Part shown: piece by piece, positions 9,107-39,346 of the stretch
Position numbering within the stretch: position 1 is the stretch's first letter
Layout: each line of letters opens with the position of its first letter
From: a virus
Strand: one strand, 5' to 3'
Length of the DNA stretch: 41,559 nt
Virus record (IMG/VR): IMGVR_UViG_3300009419_000030
Location: 1 to 41,559 of that record
Notes under the pieces: generated by a model
What the model was told of the DNA's origin: nothing
The model's input: the letters and a program-made list of their open reading frames with translations, nothing else
Databases searched by the model: none
Position numbers and translations under genes: made by a program

Positions 9107-11413
9107 TTATTGTACAGAGATCGAAGAAATGCTAGCAGGTGAAAGTATACCATTAGCAGCCTTAACAAAATCAGACTTGGTTAGATTAGGATATTTAATA
9201 TATCCAGGTTTACCCGGATTTAAGAAATATTGCATTATTGTCGAATCAGCCCAACCTATAGCTTTATATCCTGCCATTTCAGCGCTTAGTGCGGAGATAA
9301 GAGTATTACCTTTCAATGACTGAGATGTATTCGTTCCAGGAGAGGTTAAAAGTGAAGCTTGTCCCGATGTAAATGATAAAGGAGGTATAGATTTAACTAT
9401 TGATATAGCAGGAGCCAATGTACCTATTATACCAGTTCCACTTCCGGATGTTGTTATAACAGGAGCAGGAGCAGCAGTTGCACCTGTTACAAAGTCCTCC
9501 TCGCCGTCTTTTTTCCAATATCCCCAATACATAACTGAGCTTGTGTTACCAACAGTGCTAGCCAGTGTAGATCCAGTAATGCTCACACTATTACCCACAC
9601 TTGCTATTGATTGGTTCTCTGCTCTTCTTGTAGCAACTACGCTCTCTATTCTCTTCTCAAGAACGTTATCACTTACCCCGGAAGCAACCCTTATGGTTTC
9701 ACTTCCGGAAACTGATCCTGATGCTGGGTTTATGGTTGTGCCGTTAGTAATAAAAAATCTCCTGTCAGTCACTTGCAATATCTGCATAGATATTGACTCG
9801 TCTATTTTAAATGCTAATTCACCAGATAATGGATTAGCTACACCCCTATCGTCCAATGACGGTATCTGTATTTTATTACCCTTTGGATTAACAAAGGATA
9901 AATTAAATTTACCTGAGCTACTAAGATCTATTGCAACCGGATCTCCGGATGGACCACTTTTAATAAACTTAAATTTATAGAAATTATCAAAAGGTGATAT
10001 TGCTATAGTTAGTTTTCCCGTACCATACGCTGTACTATTTCCCGCTCCGTCAATATTACTCAAAGTATTATCAACGAAAATTAGATTATTTATAGTTGCA
10101 GTAACATAATTTTGATCTATAAAAACATTACTATATTTAACTATTTCTCTTATCTTTCCCTGATTATTGTTACCCAGCTTAATGTCAGCCTGTGAATAAA
10201 TCCTATTATAAATCTTCTGAACCTGCGGGAAGTTGCTAAGTGATATCGGTGTTATATTAGTTCCCCATTGAGAAGGATTAGATGATGTATATGTTGATAT
10301 TCTTATAGTTCTATTTTGATTAACATTATTAACTAATGACATAGTATATCTTAGTGTAAAACTAGCAGCAACACCAGCATTTCTAACTATTGGTCTATAA
10401 TAATTAGGCAGATCGTATGCGGTAGTTTGTATTGATTGAAACTGCGAAGTCTGTATAAAAGCAGCCCCAATTTGTTCAAGAACCTCTATTTCATGACTTA
10501 TATAATATGAATTACCGATCGAATTCTGAAAGAGAATAAAGTCCTCTATAAATCCTTCGTTATCTGTTGCATAATATTCAAAGAATTGCCCCTGATCTGA
10601 TTCTTTTATGGTTGCTCCTATGTTAGAGAATGGATCCTCTTGTTCTAGTGACAAAGTAGATATCAGGGAAGAATTATACCTCTGATATCCATTGAAATCA
10701 ACAGTATTCTGAACTTGCCAAGCACTTATTCTGATAGGAGAGCCGTATATAAATCCCTCGCCACTGGAACTTATTAAAGATGCAAGGGTCTGAGGTTTAA
10801 AAACATTAGATGCAGTTAAATACTTATCCCCCATATCTTTTAAATTCGGTATTTTTATTTCAAAATACTTATCATAGATATTAGAACCTATAGTAACTGG
10901 GCTTGGATTTAGATAATAATCCTGCTCAGTCCCTTTTTTTATTAGAATCTGTGAAACGGTAACAAATTCAAGATTCTGATCCTGATATTCTATTCCCATT
11001 ATGATACCATCTATATTATTTAGATTATATCCCGCTCTAATGTGATATCTAACAGTGTCATAGATAACCTGTATATTCGAAGGAAATGTTATAGGTAGAT
11101 CAATGGTATTAGTTAAATCGTCGCTATAGTCATTAAAGGGTATAATTAGATTTGAATCTAGAGTAACAAATGAGCTCTCGCCTATTCTCACCACACTATT
11201 CTCGGTGGTATTATGTGTTATTGAATAGTCGGATTCGCTATTAAATATCTGTACGTTATTATTCATGTAACCATTTACCAACTTGTCGTACCCCACAGTA
11301 ACAGGTCCGTTATTAACAAAATATGTCTCCGGGGTTGGTTCATCAGCGTACATATACTCCATCAGGAGATATGGTGTTATCTGAACAAATTTAGATGTAG
11401 TTGTAAATGCCAT
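9107..11413 (-). CDS. Large structural protein, unknown (tail/baseplate)
   Basis: 768 residues, rich in Ser, Thr, Asn and Ile, with alternating strand-like patterns and no enzymatic motif, signal peptide or membrane segment. It begins MAFTTTSKFVQITPYLLMEYMY. The C-terminal quarter (from about residue 590) is low in complexity and rich in Gly, Ser, Ala and Thr (for example TTSGSGTGIIGTLAPAIS), then ends in a more regular segment. Neighbours are a tail-tube-like gene and a membrane-anchored protein, so a role in tail or baseplate is likely. I do not recognise the family. Confidence 0.7.
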   Translation of the reverse strand: MAFTTTSKFVQITPYLLMEYMYADEPTPETYFVNNGPVTVGYDKLVNGYMNNNVQIFNSESDYSITHNTTENSVVRIGESSFVTLDSNLIIPFNDYSDDLTNTIDLPITFPSNIQVIYDTVRYHIRAGYNLNNIDGIIMGIEYQDQNLEFVTVSQILIKKGTEQDYYLNPSPVTIGSNIYDKYFEIKIPNLKDMGDKYLTASNVFKPQTLASLISSSGEGFIYGSPIRISAWQVQNTVDFNGYQRYNSSLISTLSLEQEDPFSNIGATIKESDQGQFFEYYATDNEGFIEDFILFQNSIGNSYYISHEIEVLEQIGAAFIQTSQFQSIQTTAYDLPNYYRPIVRNAGVAASFTLRYTMSLVNNVNQNRTIRISTYTSSNPSQWGTNITPISLSNFPQVQKIYNRIYSQADIKLGNNNQGKIREIVKYSNVFIDQNYVTATINNLIFVDNTLSNIDGAGNSTAYGTGKLTIAISPFDNFYKFKFIKSGPSGDPVAIDLSSSGKFNLSFVNPKGNKIQIPSLDDRGVANPLSGELAFKIDESISMQILQVTDRRFFITNGTTINPASGSVSGSETIRVASGVSDNVLEKRIESVVATRRAENQSIASVGNSVSITGSTLASTVGNTSSVMYWGYWKKDGEEDFVTGATAAPAPVITTSGSGTGIIGTLAPAISIVKSIPPLSFTSGQASLLTSPGTNTSQSLKGNTLISALSAEMAGYKAIGWADSTIMQYFLNPGKPGYIKYPNLTKSDFVKAANGILSPASISSISVQ

Positions 11414-12539: not shown

Positions 12540-12959
12540 TTATTCAGCTGCCGAGATTGATTGTACTATTTTATTATGTGATATGATACTATCAATAACA
12601 TATGTATGTGCATCCTCGATCTCTATCTTTAGTACCTCCCCATTTCCAATAGCATATACCGATTCAAGTATTGAAGTTCCGTTCATTGTTTTTATTTCGC
12701 TTCCTATCTCAATTTCACTAACAGAAACATAATCACCAGAGCTTAATAAAAATTTATGCGTATCGGAAACGGTTAATATTTTTCCTCCTATATTTACAGA
12801 AACTATAGGCTGTATCGTAGTTTCTATATATGAAACTTTATAATAACCCCATTCGTTACTAATTTCATGTATAGTATATATTTCATTTCCGATTTCAAGA
12901 TCACCAGCTAATATACTTAATTCAGGGCTTATCATAATAGGCATATTAGGGGTTGGACA
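12540..12959 (-). other. Hint (intein/Hedgehog-like) domain region of the fibre protein
   Basis: The 139 residues from Cys568 to the end of the fibre protein carry Hint hallmarks: a cysteine right after the poly-Gly linker, a block B-like TVSDTHKF, and a final HTYVIDSIISHN. The residue after Asn is Lys, not Cys, Ser or Thr, so full protein splicing is not expected. This resembles bacterial intein-like (BIL) domains. The length leaves no room for a homing endonuclease. Confidence 0.75.
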
Positions 12960-14660
12960 TCCTCCACCTCCTCCACCACCAACAGGTGCGGATCCACCAC
13001 CACTCGTAGGAACGGTACCACCTACAGGTCCACTAGAAGGTGGAGGCGTTTCTCCTACTGAATATAAATTAGTTAAATCTAAATGGCCTCCTCTACCGTC
13101 ACATGTCTTCCAGAATATTCTTGTATTACCATTGTTTGCATTAGCATATGCTATCCAATTAAGATCAACATATTGGCATGACGTAGATGCAAAGGGAACA
13201 TATGTTTTTACCACCGTACCTATGCTAGAAACAAATTGGTTAAAATCAATAATGAGGCCAAGTATATTTCTGCCTCCCGGATCGGTATCCCTATTATCCA
13301 ACATTACTCTAAATGTCCTTGATCTATTATAAGAATACACCGGATACATATTTTGAGTATAATTCGAGGGAACATATAAATACACTCCACCGGTTCTAGT
13401 ATACGAAAGTGGAGTAACCACCACAACATCAGATTCCCAGAAGGAAAGATTTCTTAAATCAAAAACATTTCCTAGATTGGCGGTTGCAACAGAATTATAC
13501 AATTTAACATTCGTCTCAGCTATCGTATTTTGCGATATTTGTTGAAGCCTCTTTACATTATATGAATAAGGTCCAGCGGTTCCCCCTGTAGCTCCACCGG
13601 TTGAGCCGAATATCGTTTGCGCAAAATTACCGCTCGAAACTGTTCCTCTAGGCTTAGCTGAAAGAATACTACCTCCACCTATTCCGGTAAATTCGAATAT
13701 TGAATTATTTAAACTTCCTACCTCCAGCTCAATATTGGTTCCAGGGAATGTCGTGGTTGGTGTATTATTTAATAGATAAGATCCAGTTGCAGCAGATATT
13801 ACAATTGAGCCAAGATGATCATAAGCTATTTGATTAAAAACTAAATTGGAGGAATTGACATTAAAGAATGTACCAGCACCAATCGTATTATTCGATGATA
13901 TGTTAAAATCACCTACACCAGATAAGCTATAATTTAGGGAGGTTGAATTTACTCTATTTCCAGACATACTTAATCTTGCACCCGCAGTATTTATTGAGGT
14001 GCTAAGTAATGAGGTTATTCTAAATATGCCTCCGGATCTAAACTCAAGATCTCCAAGAACTCCGGTATTTTTCCAATAAAACGAAGGAGTCAAATTCGAT
14101 ATAGAACCAGATTTAGCAAATCCCATTATGGGTGATGATGTCTGATCGTTCGTAGAAATTAGAACCTTGGAGTTATTCGGATTTATATCAGATATTGGCA
14201 TATCAGAATCACTTATAACTAGATTGGTGTACGCTGCCGATGCACCAACATTATTTAAGCCTATCACATATTTATCAGTGACTCCGGCTGGTCCCTTTAT
14301 AAACTCATACGATTTAAAATATGATGAGCTGAAAAGTCTATATCCGGTGTCTATCCATGAAGCAGTTGGTCCCTTTTGATTAACTACACCATCTGCGGTA
14401 TTTGAATTTATCCATAGATCATATTCTTGGCTTCCCACGGGTTGGGACGATTGGCTATACCATTTTGTTGCTCTATTTCCAGCAACACCTCTAACTCCTT
14501 TAAATCCAGCAGGCCCATATATACCGGTAGCTCCCTTGATACCCTGATGACCATTAGGTCCTACACCAAATGAAACTATCTGATCGAAGTTATAATTGAT
14601 CTTAGCTAAGGCTTCACTTTTGGAATCACCCTGGAAAATATATTTATTATTAAAGTGCAT
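12540..14660 (-). CDS. Collagen-like tail fibre protein with C-terminal Hint domain
   Basis: 706 residues. The N-terminal module GDSKSEALAKINYNFDQIV (11-29), shared with the two genes upstream, probably anchors the fibre. It is followed by ten Gly-X-Y triplets (about 34-63), a small domain with QPVGS and YDLWIN, then a long beta-rich shaft. At about 545-567 a Pro/Ser/Gly linker ends in seven glycines before Cys568. From there a Hint (intein/Hedgehog-type) fold is suggested: N-terminal Cys568, block B-like TVSDTHKFL with His635, and a C-terminal HTYVIDSIISHNK with His695-Asn696, followed by ten more residues. The paralogs lack this extension. Self-cleavage or ligation at Gly-Cys is expected from the family but not shown. 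Confidence 0.8.
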   Translation of the reverse strand: MHFNNKYIFQGDSKSEALAKINYNFDQIVSFGVGPNGHQGIKGATGIYGPAGFKGVRGVAGNRATKWYSQSSQPVGSQEYDLWINSNTADGVVNQKGPTASWIDTGYRLFSSSYFKSYEFIKGPAGVTDKYVIGLNNVGASAAYTNLVISDSDMPISDINPNNSKVLISTNDQTSSPIMGFAKSGSISNLTPSFYWKNTGVLGDLEFRSGGIFRITSLLSTSINTAGARLSMSGNRVNSTSLNYSLSGVGDFNISSNNTIGAGTFFNVNSSNLVFNQIAYDHLGSIVISAATGSYLLNNTPTTTFPGTNIELEVGSLNNSIFEFTGIGGGSILSAKPRGTVSSGNFAQTIFGSTGGATGGTAGPYSYNVKRLQQISQNTIAETNVKLYNSVATANLGNVFDLRNLSFWESDVVVVTPLSYTRTGGVYLYVPSNYTQNMYPVYSYNRSRTFRVMLDNRDTDPGGRNILGLIIDFNQFVSSIGTVVKTYVPFASTSCQYVDLNWIAYANANNGNTRIFWKTCDGRGGHLDLTNLYSVGETPPPSSGPVGGTVPTSGGGSAPVGGGGGGGCPTPNMPIMISPELSILAGDLEIGNEIYTIHEISNEWGYYKVSYIETTIQPIVSVNIGGKILTVSDTHKFLLSSGDYVSVSEIEIGSEIKTMNGTSILESVYAIGNGEVLKIEIEDAHTYVIDSIISHNKIVQSISAAE

Positions 14661-14662
14661 AT

Positions 14663-16333
14663 TTAGACTGTTGCGTTATATGTTGTTAGTACACCACATC
14701 GGTTTGTTGTTAAACCACCTCCCCATGCTGAATAATATACTTTGAACCATCTCCTCGTACCTGCAGTTGATCCAGTTCCTTGAATATTAACTATCGTTAT
14801 ATCTATGGTCGATGCACCAACATCATTTACTGCTGATAAATCGACGTAGGAATAATTGGGCAATGCTGCATTATTGGGTGCTAGTGATTGATCATTTGAA
14901 GTGTTTAATCCAATAAATCTAAAATTATCGGAGCTAGAAATACCGGAGTTATTACTATGTACTCTAAAGTTTATAGCTTCACGATTATCCAATAATTTGA
15001 GCCATCCGCCATTTCCACCAGGTGCACCACCAGTGGCGGGAGTCCATAAACATAGGCCTCTCTGATTTGCGGTCGATGTTGGTTTTGTTACCACAAGATC
15101 CATCCCATTATTTGCCCACACATAATTACCATTTGCCGTTAGCGAAATTGATGGAAGAGCAGTAACCCAATCTATTGTGGTACCTGAAATTACTGATGTT
15201 GTTGTTGCAGTTACTGATTGTGAATTCTGTATCGAATTTACCCTCTTATTAAAATAAAATAATCCGGATCCATCTATATAATTTATAATTGAGCCGGATT
15301 GAGTGCTTCTCAAAAGATTTATTGCATTTGATCCCGTCGAGTTGTAAACATATCTAATATTTCCAGTATTGGCCGACAGTGAGGTTAGACTCATTGTCGG
15401 TATAACAGTTCCATTCGGTGTTGCTGAATATATTGGGGTTTTTAACGAAAATAATCCTCCTGCAAAAGTTATATTGCTGGTTGAAAATATAGCCGAACCT
15501 GTCGAAAAATTAAACGTGATCCTTGATGTTGCATTTATACCGAATGGCAAAGTACTCGGTGTTGATATATTAAGACCCGTTGAATTCAGGTTAACCCCCG
15601 ACGAGGTAGAGGAAATGTATAGATCTGAGGAAGTGTTTATGTCAAATCTATATCCACTAAGAAAGCTAAGTCCATAGTTTGCTCCCACTGCTGTTGCACC
15701 CTGAGTCCAATAAAATCTAGGTGTCTTTTGGGTAAATGTTAAATCCGATGAATATTCGTGCTTACTAAACTCCAATATATTTTTATTCGGATTTGATCCG
15801 TCGGTTGATATAACAAATTTACTATATTGTGGATTTGATATGATATTTGGAGAGATTGCACTCGTACCACTCGCTAATTGAACGTCACTGATTACCGTGG
15901 TATAATTTAAAGGTATGGATGATGATATGTAATATCCTTTTTTTGTGCTATTACCCGAGGATGTTGTTACTGGTTCATCTACATAGAACAGGTCTCTAGA
16001 TCTTACATTTATACCGCTCAATGCCCATGAATTCCCATTAAATTCATATATGTTATTAAATTCATCGGTATTCATCCAATAATCGGAAGTAAATACATTG
16101 CTGCCTTGAGGTTGGGTTGGTCCAATATTCCATATACTACCTCTTTGTCCTATGTCGCCATAGGATCCAATTGGTCCGGTAGCTCCTTTATTACCATCGG
16201 GACCAGGTTTACCCATTTTCCCGTAAGGTCCACCACCAAAATCAATTATACCACTAAAATTATAATTAATTTTATCGATTATATTATTCTGAGAATCCCC
16301 TTCTTCTATTCTAAGTAATTGTAACTCTGTCAT
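14663..16333 (-). CDS. Collagen-like tail fibre protein (paralog 2)
   Basis: 556 residues. EEGDSQNNIIDKINYNFSGI near the N-terminus is the same anchor module as in the flanking fibre genes, followed by ten Gly-X-Y triplets (GPYGKMGKPGPDGNKGATG and onward), then the shared small domain with QPQGS and DYWMN. The remainder is a Ser/Thr/Asn-rich beta shaft. The C-terminal domain (from about residue 440, LLDNREAINFRV) resembles the pre-Hint part of the downstream paralog and ends CGVLTTYNATV, with no Hint domain. It lies 2 bp before the next gene. A role as a tail or receptor-binding fibre is inferred. Confidence 0.78.
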   Translation of the reverse strand: MTELQLLRIEEGDSQNNIIDKINYNFSGIIDFGGGPYGKMGKPGPDGNKGATGPIGSYGDIGQRGSIWNIGPTQPQGSNVFTSDYWMNTDEFNNIYEFNGNSWALSGINVRSRDLFYVDEPVTTSSGNSTKKGYYISSSIPLNYTTVISDVQLASGTSAISPNIISNPQYSKFVISTDGSNPNKNILEFSKHEYSSDLTFTQKTPRFYWTQGATAVGANYGLSFLSGYRFDINTSSDLYISSTSSGVNLNSTGLNISTPSTLPFGINATSRITFNFSTGSAIFSTSNITFAGGLFSLKTPIYSATPNGTVIPTMSLTSLSANTGNIRYVYNSTGSNAINLLRSTQSGSIINYIDGSGLFYFNKRVNSIQNSQSVTATTTSVISGTTIDWVTALPSISLTANGNYVWANNGMDLVVTKPTSTANQRGLCLWTPATGGAPGGNGGWLKLLDNREAINFRVHSNNSGISSSDNFRFIGLNTSNDQSLAPNNAALPNYSYVDLSAVNDVGASTIDITIVNIQGTGSTAGTRRWFKVYYSAWGGGLTTNRCGVLTTYNATV

Positions 16334-16360: not shown

Positions 16361-17917
16361 TCAAATAGTAAAAGATCCTCCAGATCCTCCATTTATCCCA
16401 TATGATCTATAAAAAACCGTTGTATTATCCCCGGTAACACCTCTCGCTATAGTGAGATCCAATGATGATGCTATATCCGAAAGCGTGACCCTATTTGTTA
16501 CGTTACCCGAGGTAGTTCCTGCTCCAATAAATGTTATACCATTACTGGGAAAAGACACTGAATTAGGACTAATAAGGATGTTTATATCTATAGATTCACC
16601 TCTATCAATACCACCGGTAGTACCCAGCGAATAGTCGGATCCTGTATAGATACCGATTCCTATGAATCCACTCGTTGGTACAACGGGATTTATGACCATG
16701 GTATTACCATCCTGAAGAACAGATGAATCTATCGGTGTACCAGTTCTTGTTATCATATACCAATTGGTATTTGCGGTGTATGGTGATGTTATAGTGCTGG
16801 TTGCACCTGGTGTGGTATTAGTGTAAGATATACCTGTCTCGGTTTTCTTAGTTCTAATTTTACCTCTAGTATCTATAAAGAAATCTCTCTGACCACCATT
16901 TGATGACTCCAAACTAATATTATAAACATTATTGGATAATGTAGAAAAGGTGTCACCTGATCTGGTAGTTCTTAGAGCTGGAGCGGTTCCACCGCTATAT
17001 AAATAAGTACTATAAACTCCATCAGGTAAACTAGGATTTAATTGAACAGGTGCGGATATTGATGATGTTCCTCCAGTAATACTTATGTTTGTACTTAGTA
17101 TGCTAAATTGCCCACTTGGAGCATTTATCTCAAATCCACCCGTTGAATATATTCCTGATCCTGAAGTAGTACCATAATTAAATTCTATATTTCCCGGTGA
17201 ATTCATTATAAATTCATTAAATCTTATATCAGATCCTCCTGATGCTCCTATAAAAAATGCTCCTCCTGGTATTTCTAATACTATACCATTGTCTGTTGGC
17301 GTAAAATTATTCCATCTAAATATCGGATGTTGAGAATAGTCGGATATATCACCATTCTCAATATCCGTTTTTGAAAATTCCAGAATAGGTGAATCATTTA
17401 CTGTGGTATCGGTCGATAGTAAAAATTTGGATAAATTTTGATTAAGAACCCCAGATCCCGGTGTTTTATCTGCTATTATAACTAGATAATCCGAGGGAAC
17501 CGTCTGGTTTAGAGCTATCGCAGAACCGGTAATACCAGTTGAAAATATGGATTCAGAATTTTTAAATATGGAATCACCGTCAGATAAACTATATCCGGTA
17601 GGCTCCCATCCGGATGAAGTAAATACACTGATGATACCAGAATCTCTATTAACCCAATAGTCTCCCTGTATAACGGTATCACCGGATCCAGCTGGTTGTG
17701 AAATATCTATAAACCATCTATTACCTCTTACCCCAGAATTTCCAGTAGGTCCAGGCTTACCTCTATCGCCAATAGCGCCATCAGCACCAGTAGGTCCGGG
17801 TCTACCCTGAGATCCACCATGTATTTCGATGATCTCATCAAAATTGAGATTTACTTTATCGAACATTTCCGATTGTGAGTCAGAATATTCTAATGATTGT
17901 ATATTTATATTTGGCAT
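16361..17917 (-). CDS. Collagen-like tail fibre protein (paralog 3)
   Basis: 518 residues. SDSQSEMFDKVNLNFDEII forms the shared N-terminal module, followed by about eleven Gly-X-Y triplets (GSQGRPGPTGADGAIGDRG and onward), then QPAGS and DYWVN and a beta-rich shaft. The C-terminus is Gly/Ser-rich (YGINGGSGGSFTI). It is the first of three tandem paralogs in transcription order and starts 2 bp after the giant 1822-aa gene ends. It probably forms a trimeric fibre with a collagen-like N-terminal neck. Confidence 0.78.
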   Translation of the reverse strand: MPNINIQSLEYSDSQSEMFDKVNLNFDEIIEIHGGSQGRPGPTGADGAIGDRGKPGPTGNSGVRGNRWFIDISQPAGSGDTVIQGDYWVNRDSGIISVFTSSGWEPTGYSLSDGDSIFKNSESIFSTGITGSAIALNQTVPSDYLVIIADKTPGSGVLNQNLSKFLLSTDTTVNDSPILEFSKTDIENGDISDYSQHPIFRWNNFTPTDNGIVLEIPGGAFFIGASGGSDIRFNEFIMNSPGNIEFNYGTTSGSGIYSTGGFEINAPSGQFSILSTNISITGGTSSISAPVQLNPSLPDGVYSTYLYSGGTAPALRTTRSGDTFSTLSNNVYNISLESSNGGQRDFFIDTRGKIRTKKTETGISYTNTTPGATSTITSPYTANTNWYMITRTGTPIDSSVLQDGNTMVINPVVPTSGFIGIGIYTGSDYSLGTTGGIDRGESIDINILISPNSVSFPSNGITFIGAGTTSGNVTNRVTLSDIASSLDLTIARGVTGDNTTVFYRSYGINGGSGGSFTI

Positions 17918-38131: not shown

Positions 38132-38587
38132 TTACTTATTATGTGTTAATGTATTATTTGCAAAATATAAATTACTGTTATTCACATCAATATCATATAC
38201 AGTTATTGGTGCATTCATAACAACCAATGATGTAATTTCAAATTCGTTATTATCTATATCTAATAACACATCGCCAACATTTAATTCGAATGTTGTTCTA
38301 ATGTACCACACGTCATCTTGTTTAACCACATGGTTATGTGTGTAGGTTGCAATTAATTTACCGTCATTAATGTTTATCACGGAATCAAATTCATGCACTG
38401 ATACGCCAATCACAGTTGATATGGAATCCACATAATCTAATGTATCACTGCTCCAATGGTACCATTGGTCAGGTGTCAGAGGCATTCCTGCAACATCAAT
38501 GGATTTCAATACATCACCAACTTGTACATCCTGTATCAATTTAGTTGTCCCATCAGATATCGTTATTAATGTGTCAGCAACTAAACA
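38132..38587 (-). other. Second Hint domain region
   Basis: 151 residues from Cys254 to the C-terminus. It has an N-terminal Cys followed by LVADTLITISDG, GDVL turns, a THNH block B, and a terminal YDIDV...THNK. There is no room for a homing endonuclease and no downstream extein beyond one lysine. Its sequence differs greatly from the Hint domain at 12540-12959, so a recent local duplication is unlikely. Confidence 0.8.
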
Positions 38588-39346
38588 TCCACTACAAACA
38601 CTACATAAAGTAGTAAATGCTCCCCCGTTCCAATATCTTTGGTTTGTTCCATCCCCATAATATCCTGAAGGTGCAGGAGTGGTAGAACAATTCATGCTAA
38701 AATCAGAATTTGTTAATGTTGTTGCGGTACATATATCATTTGTATCAGCACAAACAGACACAAGAGTTGGAGAGTTACAAACTTCGAAAAGACTCGAGCC
38801 ATAACTAAGATCCATTGGATTACTAGTACAGCAATTAAACAGTGACTCGTCCCAGCTAGCTAGATTGTCACCACCGGTTATCGTAATACTAGATTCACTT
38901 TGAGTACAAATATCACGAGAGGATGGTATAAATCCATCATCTCCTACACTAGAATTCACTGTAGCACCTGAACAATCAATATATGAGAAAGATGTAGACT
39001 GAACAGTCGGCGCAGGAAATGGTGGGGGACCAGTATAATAAACTGTATAACATACACATGTCGGTGGAGGAATTGTCGTTGTTGTCGTGGTTGATGTTGT
39101 TGTCGTGGTTGTGGTAGTTATACCGGATACTGGCAAATCTATATAATTTGTACACTGTATACTCGTGGACTGAACTCTAATTATAGTCGTTCCATTATAA
39201 ACCAATGATGTTGTATATCCAGAAACCAATAATGATTTATCAACACCTGTTTCGAATGGTGTAACGTATCCATCAAAATCGGAATACAGATCAAATGGTC
39301 CTGTTCCTGTTCCCGCAGTGGTTAAAGTTATAGTAGCTGTAGCCAT
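38132..39346 (-). CDS. Cys-rich protein with polythreonine linker and C-terminal Hint domain
   Basis: 404 residues. An N-terminal beta domain (about 1-75) is followed by a Thr-rich linker (77-91), a Cys-rich region with more than a dozen cysteines (about 97-253), and a Hint domain from Cys254 to the last residue. Hint marks are LCSVCSGC before LVADTLITISDG, a block B THNH at 336-339, and the C-terminal LYFANNTLTHNK with His402-Asn403. Lys404 is the final residue, so Asn cyclisation would release a single lysine. The domain could cleave or re-link the protein at Gly253-Cys254. A virion surface or adhesin role is inferred from the operon. Confidence 0.78.
   Translation of the reverse strand: MATATITLTTAGTGTGPFDLYSDFDGYVTPFETGVDKSLLVSGYTTSLVYNGTTIIRVQSTSIQCTNYIDLPVSGITTTTTTTTSTTTTTTIPPPTCVCYTVYYTGPPPFPAPTVQSTSFSYIDCSGATVNSSVGDDGFIPSSRDICTQSESSITITGGDNLASWDESLFNCCTSNPMDLSYGSSLFEVCNSPTLVSVCADTNDICTATTLTNSDFSMNCSTTPAPSGYYGDGTNQRYWNGGAFTTLCSVCSGCLVADTLITISDGTTKLIQDVQVGDVLKSIDVAGMPLTPDQWYHWSSDTLDYVDSISTVIGVSVHEFDSVININDGKLIATYTHNHVVKQDDVWYIRTTFELNVGDVLLDIDNNEFEITSLVVMNAPITVYDIDVNNSNLYFANNTLTHNK
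39068..39117 (-). repeat. Thr-codon repeat (linker of the Cys-rich Hint protein)
   Basis: An imperfect GTT/GTC/GTG trinucleotide run on the plus strand encodes 15 residues of Thr with one Ser. Codon choice is mixed, so it is not a perfect microsatellite. Confidence 0.8.

Follow-up and report, generated by a model that had tools for sequence, protein, structure and literature searches.

A C-terminal Hint domain on a collagen-like phage tail fibre and the lysine that may serve as its acyl acceptor

Type-A bacterial intein-like domains (BILs), such as that of Clostridium thermocellum (PDB 2lwy), are described in bacterial proteins and are defined by a C-terminal His-Asn (HN) followed by a non-nucleophilic +1 residue, that is, one other than Cys, Ser or Thr (PMC4031507); a signature of Lys at +1 or +2 goes unmentioned in the available part of the review. 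BIL2, from the polyubiquitin-like locus BUBL1 of Tetrahymena thermophila (PDB 6y75, 6tmm), is described as forming an isopeptide bond to lysine and as transferring to substrates, with no need for ATP, the ubiquitin-like domain that precedes it (PMC8616854). Polymorphic-toxin HINT domains (PT-HINT, PF07591) sit near the C-terminus of long surface or secreted proteins and precede a toxin domain. A functional parallel is the clip-and-link reaction of Neisseria FrpC, in which autocleavage leaves a new C-terminus linked to a lysine, but through Asp-Pro chemistry and not a Hint domain (PMC5472700). For Hint domains in phage fibres, a literature search that covered few subscription journals found no paper.

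The DNA analysed here, called the window, is the 41,559-nucleotide virus record IMGVR_UViG_3300009419_000030; its source is probably a jumbo phage, with close relatives of the fibre locus on contigs of up to 373 kb. On the minus strand it encodes three tandem paralogous fibres with short N-terminal Gly-X-Y repeats in common. Fibre 1 (16361..17917) and fibre 2 (14663..16333), recognised from their ORFs and by sequence comparison, lack a Hint; fibre 3 (12540..14660) shares 35% identity with the former over 199 columns (E 9e-19) and 31% with the latter over 294 columns (E 4e-17). An earlier note on this DNA had described a C-terminal extension on the last of the three fibres only, and comparison of the window with related loci bears this out. 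Fibre 3 is a 706-residue collagen-like tail fibre, identified from its ORF, its paralogy and PHROG tail-fibre matches to its N-terminal part. Its sequence comprises ten Gly-X-Y triplets near the N-terminus (residues 34-63; 14472..14561), a body that extends roughly to residue 543, a Gly-rich linker (residues 544-567; 12960..13031) that differs in length between aligned relatives, and the C-terminal Hint module, all on the minus strand. The linker ends in GGGGGGG, with Gly561-567 directly before Cys568, and the Hint ends in HTYVIDSIISHN (residues 685-696) before Lys697, both as the earlier note had read them. The interval 12540-12959 that it had assigned to the domain is trimmed slightly: the Hint proper (residues 568-696) occupies 12573..12959, and the rest is a ten-residue tail, KIVQSISAAE (12543..12572), plus the stop codon.

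Within the domain, Cys568 (12957..12959) is the predicted nucleophile for an N-S acyl shift at the Gly567-Cys568 bond, and His695-Asn696 of block G (12573..12578) forms the predicted site of Asn cyclisation. Both are invariant in a ten-member alignment (A2), as is the block-B His635 (12756..12758) of the SxxH motif Ser632-His635; the broader motif [STC]xxH is present in 40/40 clusters of the subfamily. Lys697 (12570..12572), at +1, is the proposed acyl acceptor.

Searched as a single sequence, fibre 3 reached no Pfam cut-off, and its Hint scored 14.4 bits against TIGR01443 (intein_Cterm), just under the cut-off of 15.6. A ten-member profile of the Hint matched the Clostridium BIL 2lwy (2e-5) and many inteins. 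AlphaFold2 returned a confident Hint fold for the 139 residues (pLDDT 91.7), and the top Foldseek matches, at TM about 0.8, were BIL2 of Tetrahymena BUBL1, DnaB inteins, the Clostridium BIL and Hedgehog; BIL2 was the best of them (TM 0.83-0.86), at about 12% identity only. PDB matches to Tako8 were discarded as a repeat artefact (about 6 bits per repeat). Because the domain is encoded at 8 loci with 69-100% identity, and because C1, the block-B His, an AHTY motif and HN are invariant in A2 at identities down to 46%, it is not a product of chance. Its dN/dS of 0.06-0.11 shows that it is under purifying selection. Structure prediction and profile search thus agree with the earlier proposal of a Hint domain, and its assignment to the BIL type holds as well, with C1, block-B His and HN present and Cys, Ser or Thr at +1 absent. 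The C-terminal domain of fibre 3 is almost certainly of the Hint/BIL type and is likely to be catalytically active.

Compared with described families, the fibre 3 Hint shares every type-A BIL feature tested, namely the fold, the N-terminal Cys, the block-B His, and HN followed by a non-nucleophilic residue, and it is similar to these domains in size. A class 1 intein has Cys, Ser or Thr at +1 and interrupts a conserved host protein with a C-extein, whereas fibre 3 has Lys697 and ten residues after HN, and many of its relatives simply lack the C-terminal extension. The same ten residues are all that stands where Hedgehog proteins have a sterol-recognition region and polymorphic toxins a C-terminal toxin domain. 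PT-HINT resembles the fibre 3 Hint in its place in a long protein and weakly in Pfam comparison, but among the cellular sequences sampled it mostly carries a Cys at one of the positions +1 to +3. BIL2 lies between ciliate ubiquitin-like domains and has its reactive lysine in the next domain, whereas the phage Hints sit on virion-type proteins, mostly with Lys at +1 or +2.

Collagen-like tail proteins in which a Hint lies at the C-terminus, followed by only 7-10 more residues, are likewise encoded by Erwinia phage Alexandra (gp112), Dickeya phage AD1 (AD1_108) and Phage NCTB (BN7874_136). No similarity of their bodies to that of fibre 3 was detected, their Hints are very divergent, and the +1 residue is Thr in Alexandra and AD1 and Ala in NCTB, where fibre 3 has Lys. 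In NCTB, the neighbouring BN7874_135 (L206, 1744-2205), a short 153-residue ORF ending FMNGILVHN-KVD, is apparently a separate Hint-like gene beside the collagen-like fibre with its own Hint. Apart from these Alexandravirus and NCTB fibres, a Hint is also found on the DUF4815 protein of L108, on a long tail fibre of L118 that has an S74 chaperone end, and on proteins with two or three tandem Hints. Carriers were called virion proteins on the basis of gene neighbourhood, the annotation of their records and matches to known families, which several of them lack. In the tandem phage proteins of L303 (2579-5353), L321 (2594-5308), L325, L317 and L311, one to a dozen residues separate the Hints, and the last Hint ends HN-Lys-stop or HN-Lys-Leu-stop. 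Matches in Lak phages, which are thought to recode TAG, fell on a short ORF and were set aside as intein for the Ser after HN.

Near the fibre genes of the window lies a tail-tube-like gene (phrog_45 match), adjoined by a 768-residue protein without a Hint (9107..11413, minus strand) whose orthologues elsewhere carry one at the C-terminus. This neighbour is kept in nearly all related loci; it has no convincing PHROG or Pfam match, and its AlphaFold2 model is poor (pLDDT 50.4). A reading as tail sheath is unsupported, since its convincing PDB profile matches fall only on the Hint of its relatives. A second, divergent Hint in the window, of the type-2 subfamily described below, ends a 404-residue Thr-rich protein (38132..39346, minus strand). 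It was recognised by profile match, with Pfam Hint and PT-HINT below cut-off, spans 38135..38587 and terminates in HN-Lys-stop (Lys codon 38135-38137), an ending also seen in proteins of L182 and L194.

The Hint module varies in presence and type among related loci. Fibre relatives are encoded at 42 loci, and across the related loci a Hint is found on fibre 3, on the 768-residue neighbour or on both; none was seen on fibre 1 or 2 in the loci examined. Two subfamilies are involved, type 1, to which the Hint of window fibre 3 belongs, and type 2, which share about 15% identity (hhalign probability 97.5). Type 2 occurs on fibre 3 in L024, L026, L034, L040 and L045, and on the 768-residue neighbour in L030 and L031; orthologues of that neighbour carry type 1 in L017, L018, L020, L024, L026 and L040. 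A terminal Hint is also present in L071 on a relative of a 1214-residue window protein (shared phrog_29329). A Hint confined to window fibre 3 is thus rejected, as the module recurs on several virion-type proteins; it is also missing in many close relatives and is therefore not essential to the fibre family. BIL2 is nearest to the type-2 phage Hints by profile (E 1e-25). In profile comparison the type-2 Hints (alignment A3) also strongly resemble the AXH domain found in ataxin-1 and HBP1 (PDB 1oa8, E 9e-13; Pfam AXH, 1e-14).

Comparison of the window with L004 shows 94% DNA identity over one stretch of 200 bases in the Hint core; immediately upstream the identity is about 77-81%, and downstream it is 74%. 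The dS is 0.37 in the Hint and 1.1 in the fibre body. Both contrasts are consistent with exchange of the Hint cassette by recombination. In L051 (7998-10049), the place of the Hint on the fibre 3 orthologue is taken by another C-terminal domain, which is charged (GKIICNLLYRQGYLPKEIWEADEKFG...); this suggests that the C-terminus of fibre 3 is a general swap site. A cellular source of the A2 family was rejected, the family being nearly absent from the 84,980 species genomes searched, with 4 distant loci.

What sets the phage Hints apart is the residue after HN. Four collection scans, combined with the loci already known, yielded 228 unique Hint cores in which C1 and HN are present; the scan patterns took in no residues after HN. 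At 60% identity the phage Hints formed 111 clusters, 98 of them without Cys, Ser or Thr at +1. Lys occupies +1 in 65 of these 98 and +1 or +2 in 77; in the subfamily of the window fibre the figures are 28/40 and 39/40. Elsewhere in the phage clusters it is scarce (13/91 at +2, 1-8 of 66-89 at each of +3 to +12, 4.9% of residues overall). The binomial P is about 7e-60, a value that ignores shared ancestry and so overstates independence. Cellular Hints behave differently, with Lys at +1 in 1/33, Cys, Ser or Thr there in 25/33 and Cys within +1 to +3 in 22/33. The +3 to +12 frequencies, the overall Lys content and the cellular control rule out composition or position bias as the source of the enrichment.

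The lysine also follows the state of the active site, since it is found at +1 in 65/112 Hints with C1 and HN intact, compared with 1/14 in which either is lost. In the tandem-Hint proteins of L127, L128 and L141, the first Hint lacks C1 and has Leu or Ile, not Lys, after HN, which is consistent with a tie between the lysine and catalysis. Tails of 1-25 residues follow HN in 41/98 phage clusters, and HN-Lys-stop is the exact end of several proteins, including the second Hint protein of the window; the lysine is therefore kept even where nothing comes after it. Lys and Arg are destabilising residues under the N-end rule. As several proteins have Lys alone after HN, a degron exposed by Asn cyclisation was rejected as the general reason. 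Parsimony requires 20 changes between Lys and non-Lys on the tree of 111 clusters, so the residue has changed repeatedly, and yet Lys is still what the majority have. Roughly one cluster in five has no Lys at +1 or +2. Arg occupies +1 in 8 clusters; in the eighth, Lys comes next, and the other seven are type-2 proteins in which a Cys, in most cases C1 of the next Hint, lies 2-12 residues past HN.

The simplest reading of this signature is that Lys beside HN replaces the +1 nucleophile of inteins. After folding, Cys568 would attack the Gly567-Cys568 bond in an N-S acyl shift, activating Gly567 of the fibre as a thioester. The side-chain amine of Lys697, which could belong to that chain or to an adjacent protomer, would then accept the acyl group at the position where inteins use Cys, Ser or Thr, and cyclisation of Asn696 would cut the Hint off. 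The expected product is a fibre that ends at Gly567, to which an amide or isopeptide bond attaches either Lys697 with its short tail or a neighbouring chain; in a side reaction, hydrolysis would leave Gly567 free. Transfer of the Gly-Cys thioester to another nucleophile, with covalent linkage as the outcome, was the proposal of the earlier note and is plausible by analogy with BIL2 and in view of the conserved lysine. That the fibre 3 Hint is a mobile, autoprocessing, type-A BIL-like virion module with Lys taking the acyl group is an evenly balanced proposition; that Lys is a true acyl acceptor falls slightly short of even.

In favour of Lys as acceptor are the intact fold and active-site residues in alignment, profile, AlphaFold2 and Foldseek comparisons, the Lys enrichment coupled to intact C1 and HN, and the isopeptide bond to lysine reported for BIL2, the nearest solved relative (PMC8616854). 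Against it, the reactive lysine of BIL2 lies in the downstream ubiquitin-like domain and the crystallised construct has Met at +1, the isolated Alexandraviruses have Thr at +1, about a fifth of clusters do without Lys at +1 or +2, parsimony calls for 20 changes of state, and Arg, found in 8 clusters, is not a plausible nucleophile. Where a protein ends HN-Lys-stop, a transfer purely in cis would add a single residue of no obvious use. The main rival is plain cleavage with Lys as a helper, in which the Hint is a removable C-terminal pro-domain and the fibre is left ending at Gly567. The thioester would hydrolyse or join the alpha-amine of the released tail, Asn would cyclise, and Lys would tune Asn cyclisation or the pocket without accepting the acyl group. 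This is what type-A BILs mainly do, splicing through the alpha-amine being within their reach (PMC4031507); Arg at +1 would fit a requirement for charge, and the L118 fibre pairs its internal Hint with the S74 chaperone end, another maturation module. Such a route leaves unexplained why Lys dominates over other basic residues, why it shifts between +1 and +2 and why it stands as the lone residue in HN-Lys-stop proteins, and it is judged unlikely, though far from negligible.

Close to the proposal of the earlier note is transfer in trans, in which activated Gly567 would be handed to a different virion protein, at one of its lysines, or to an amine on the host surface, fixing the fibre covalently in the manner of FrpC. 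BIL2 does conjugate its upstream domain to other substrates (PMC8616854), tail-fibre-type proteins are among the carriers, and Gly-rich linkers would give reach, at least three Gly in the last five residues being present in 29/98 clusters compared with 1/13 of those with Cys, Ser or Thr at +1. The conserved Lys in cis, however, adjoins the active site and could quench the thioester before another target is reached, and the module is missing in many close relatives; this outcome is distinctly improbable. Retention of the Hint as an unprocessed surface domain for binding, decoy or metal binding would suit a module that comes and goes in virion-type genes as an adhesin domain does, and BIL2 binds zinc (PMC8616854). 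It is very unlikely, given that C1, the block-B His and HN persist in subfamilies that share only about 15% identity, and that the presence of Lys goes with an intact active site. The intein-like fold and motifs would also suit an intein in decay after loss of its +1 nucleophile, but the Hint ends ten residues before the stop codon and so leaves no C-extein to restore, an endonuclease is absent, dN/dS is low and the same architecture occurs on several genes; the chance of this is minute.

The new element is the lysine that mostly stands just after the cut site in phage virion-type Hints, which suggests that a protein end is joined to a lysine. Tentatively, and on the unlikely side of the balance, many tailed phages may carry a Hint class in which Lys stands in for the intein +1 nucleophile and forms amide or isopeptide bonds on virion proteins. 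Such bonds might connect protomers, and fibres would become covalently closed or cross-linked with no need for enzymes or ATP. If Lys accepts the acyl group, one self-contained domain would be enough for phage particles to make isopeptide bonds, a route that the literature surveyed describes for the ciliate ubiquitin-like locus. Cultured Alexandraviruses carry a related architecture, so the question of processing can be put to real virions. If true, the reaction would account for a widespread, largely unannotated group of phage Hint domains, and would supply natural Lys-directed ligation domains and, for tail fibres, a step of maturation or cross-linking that can be tested.
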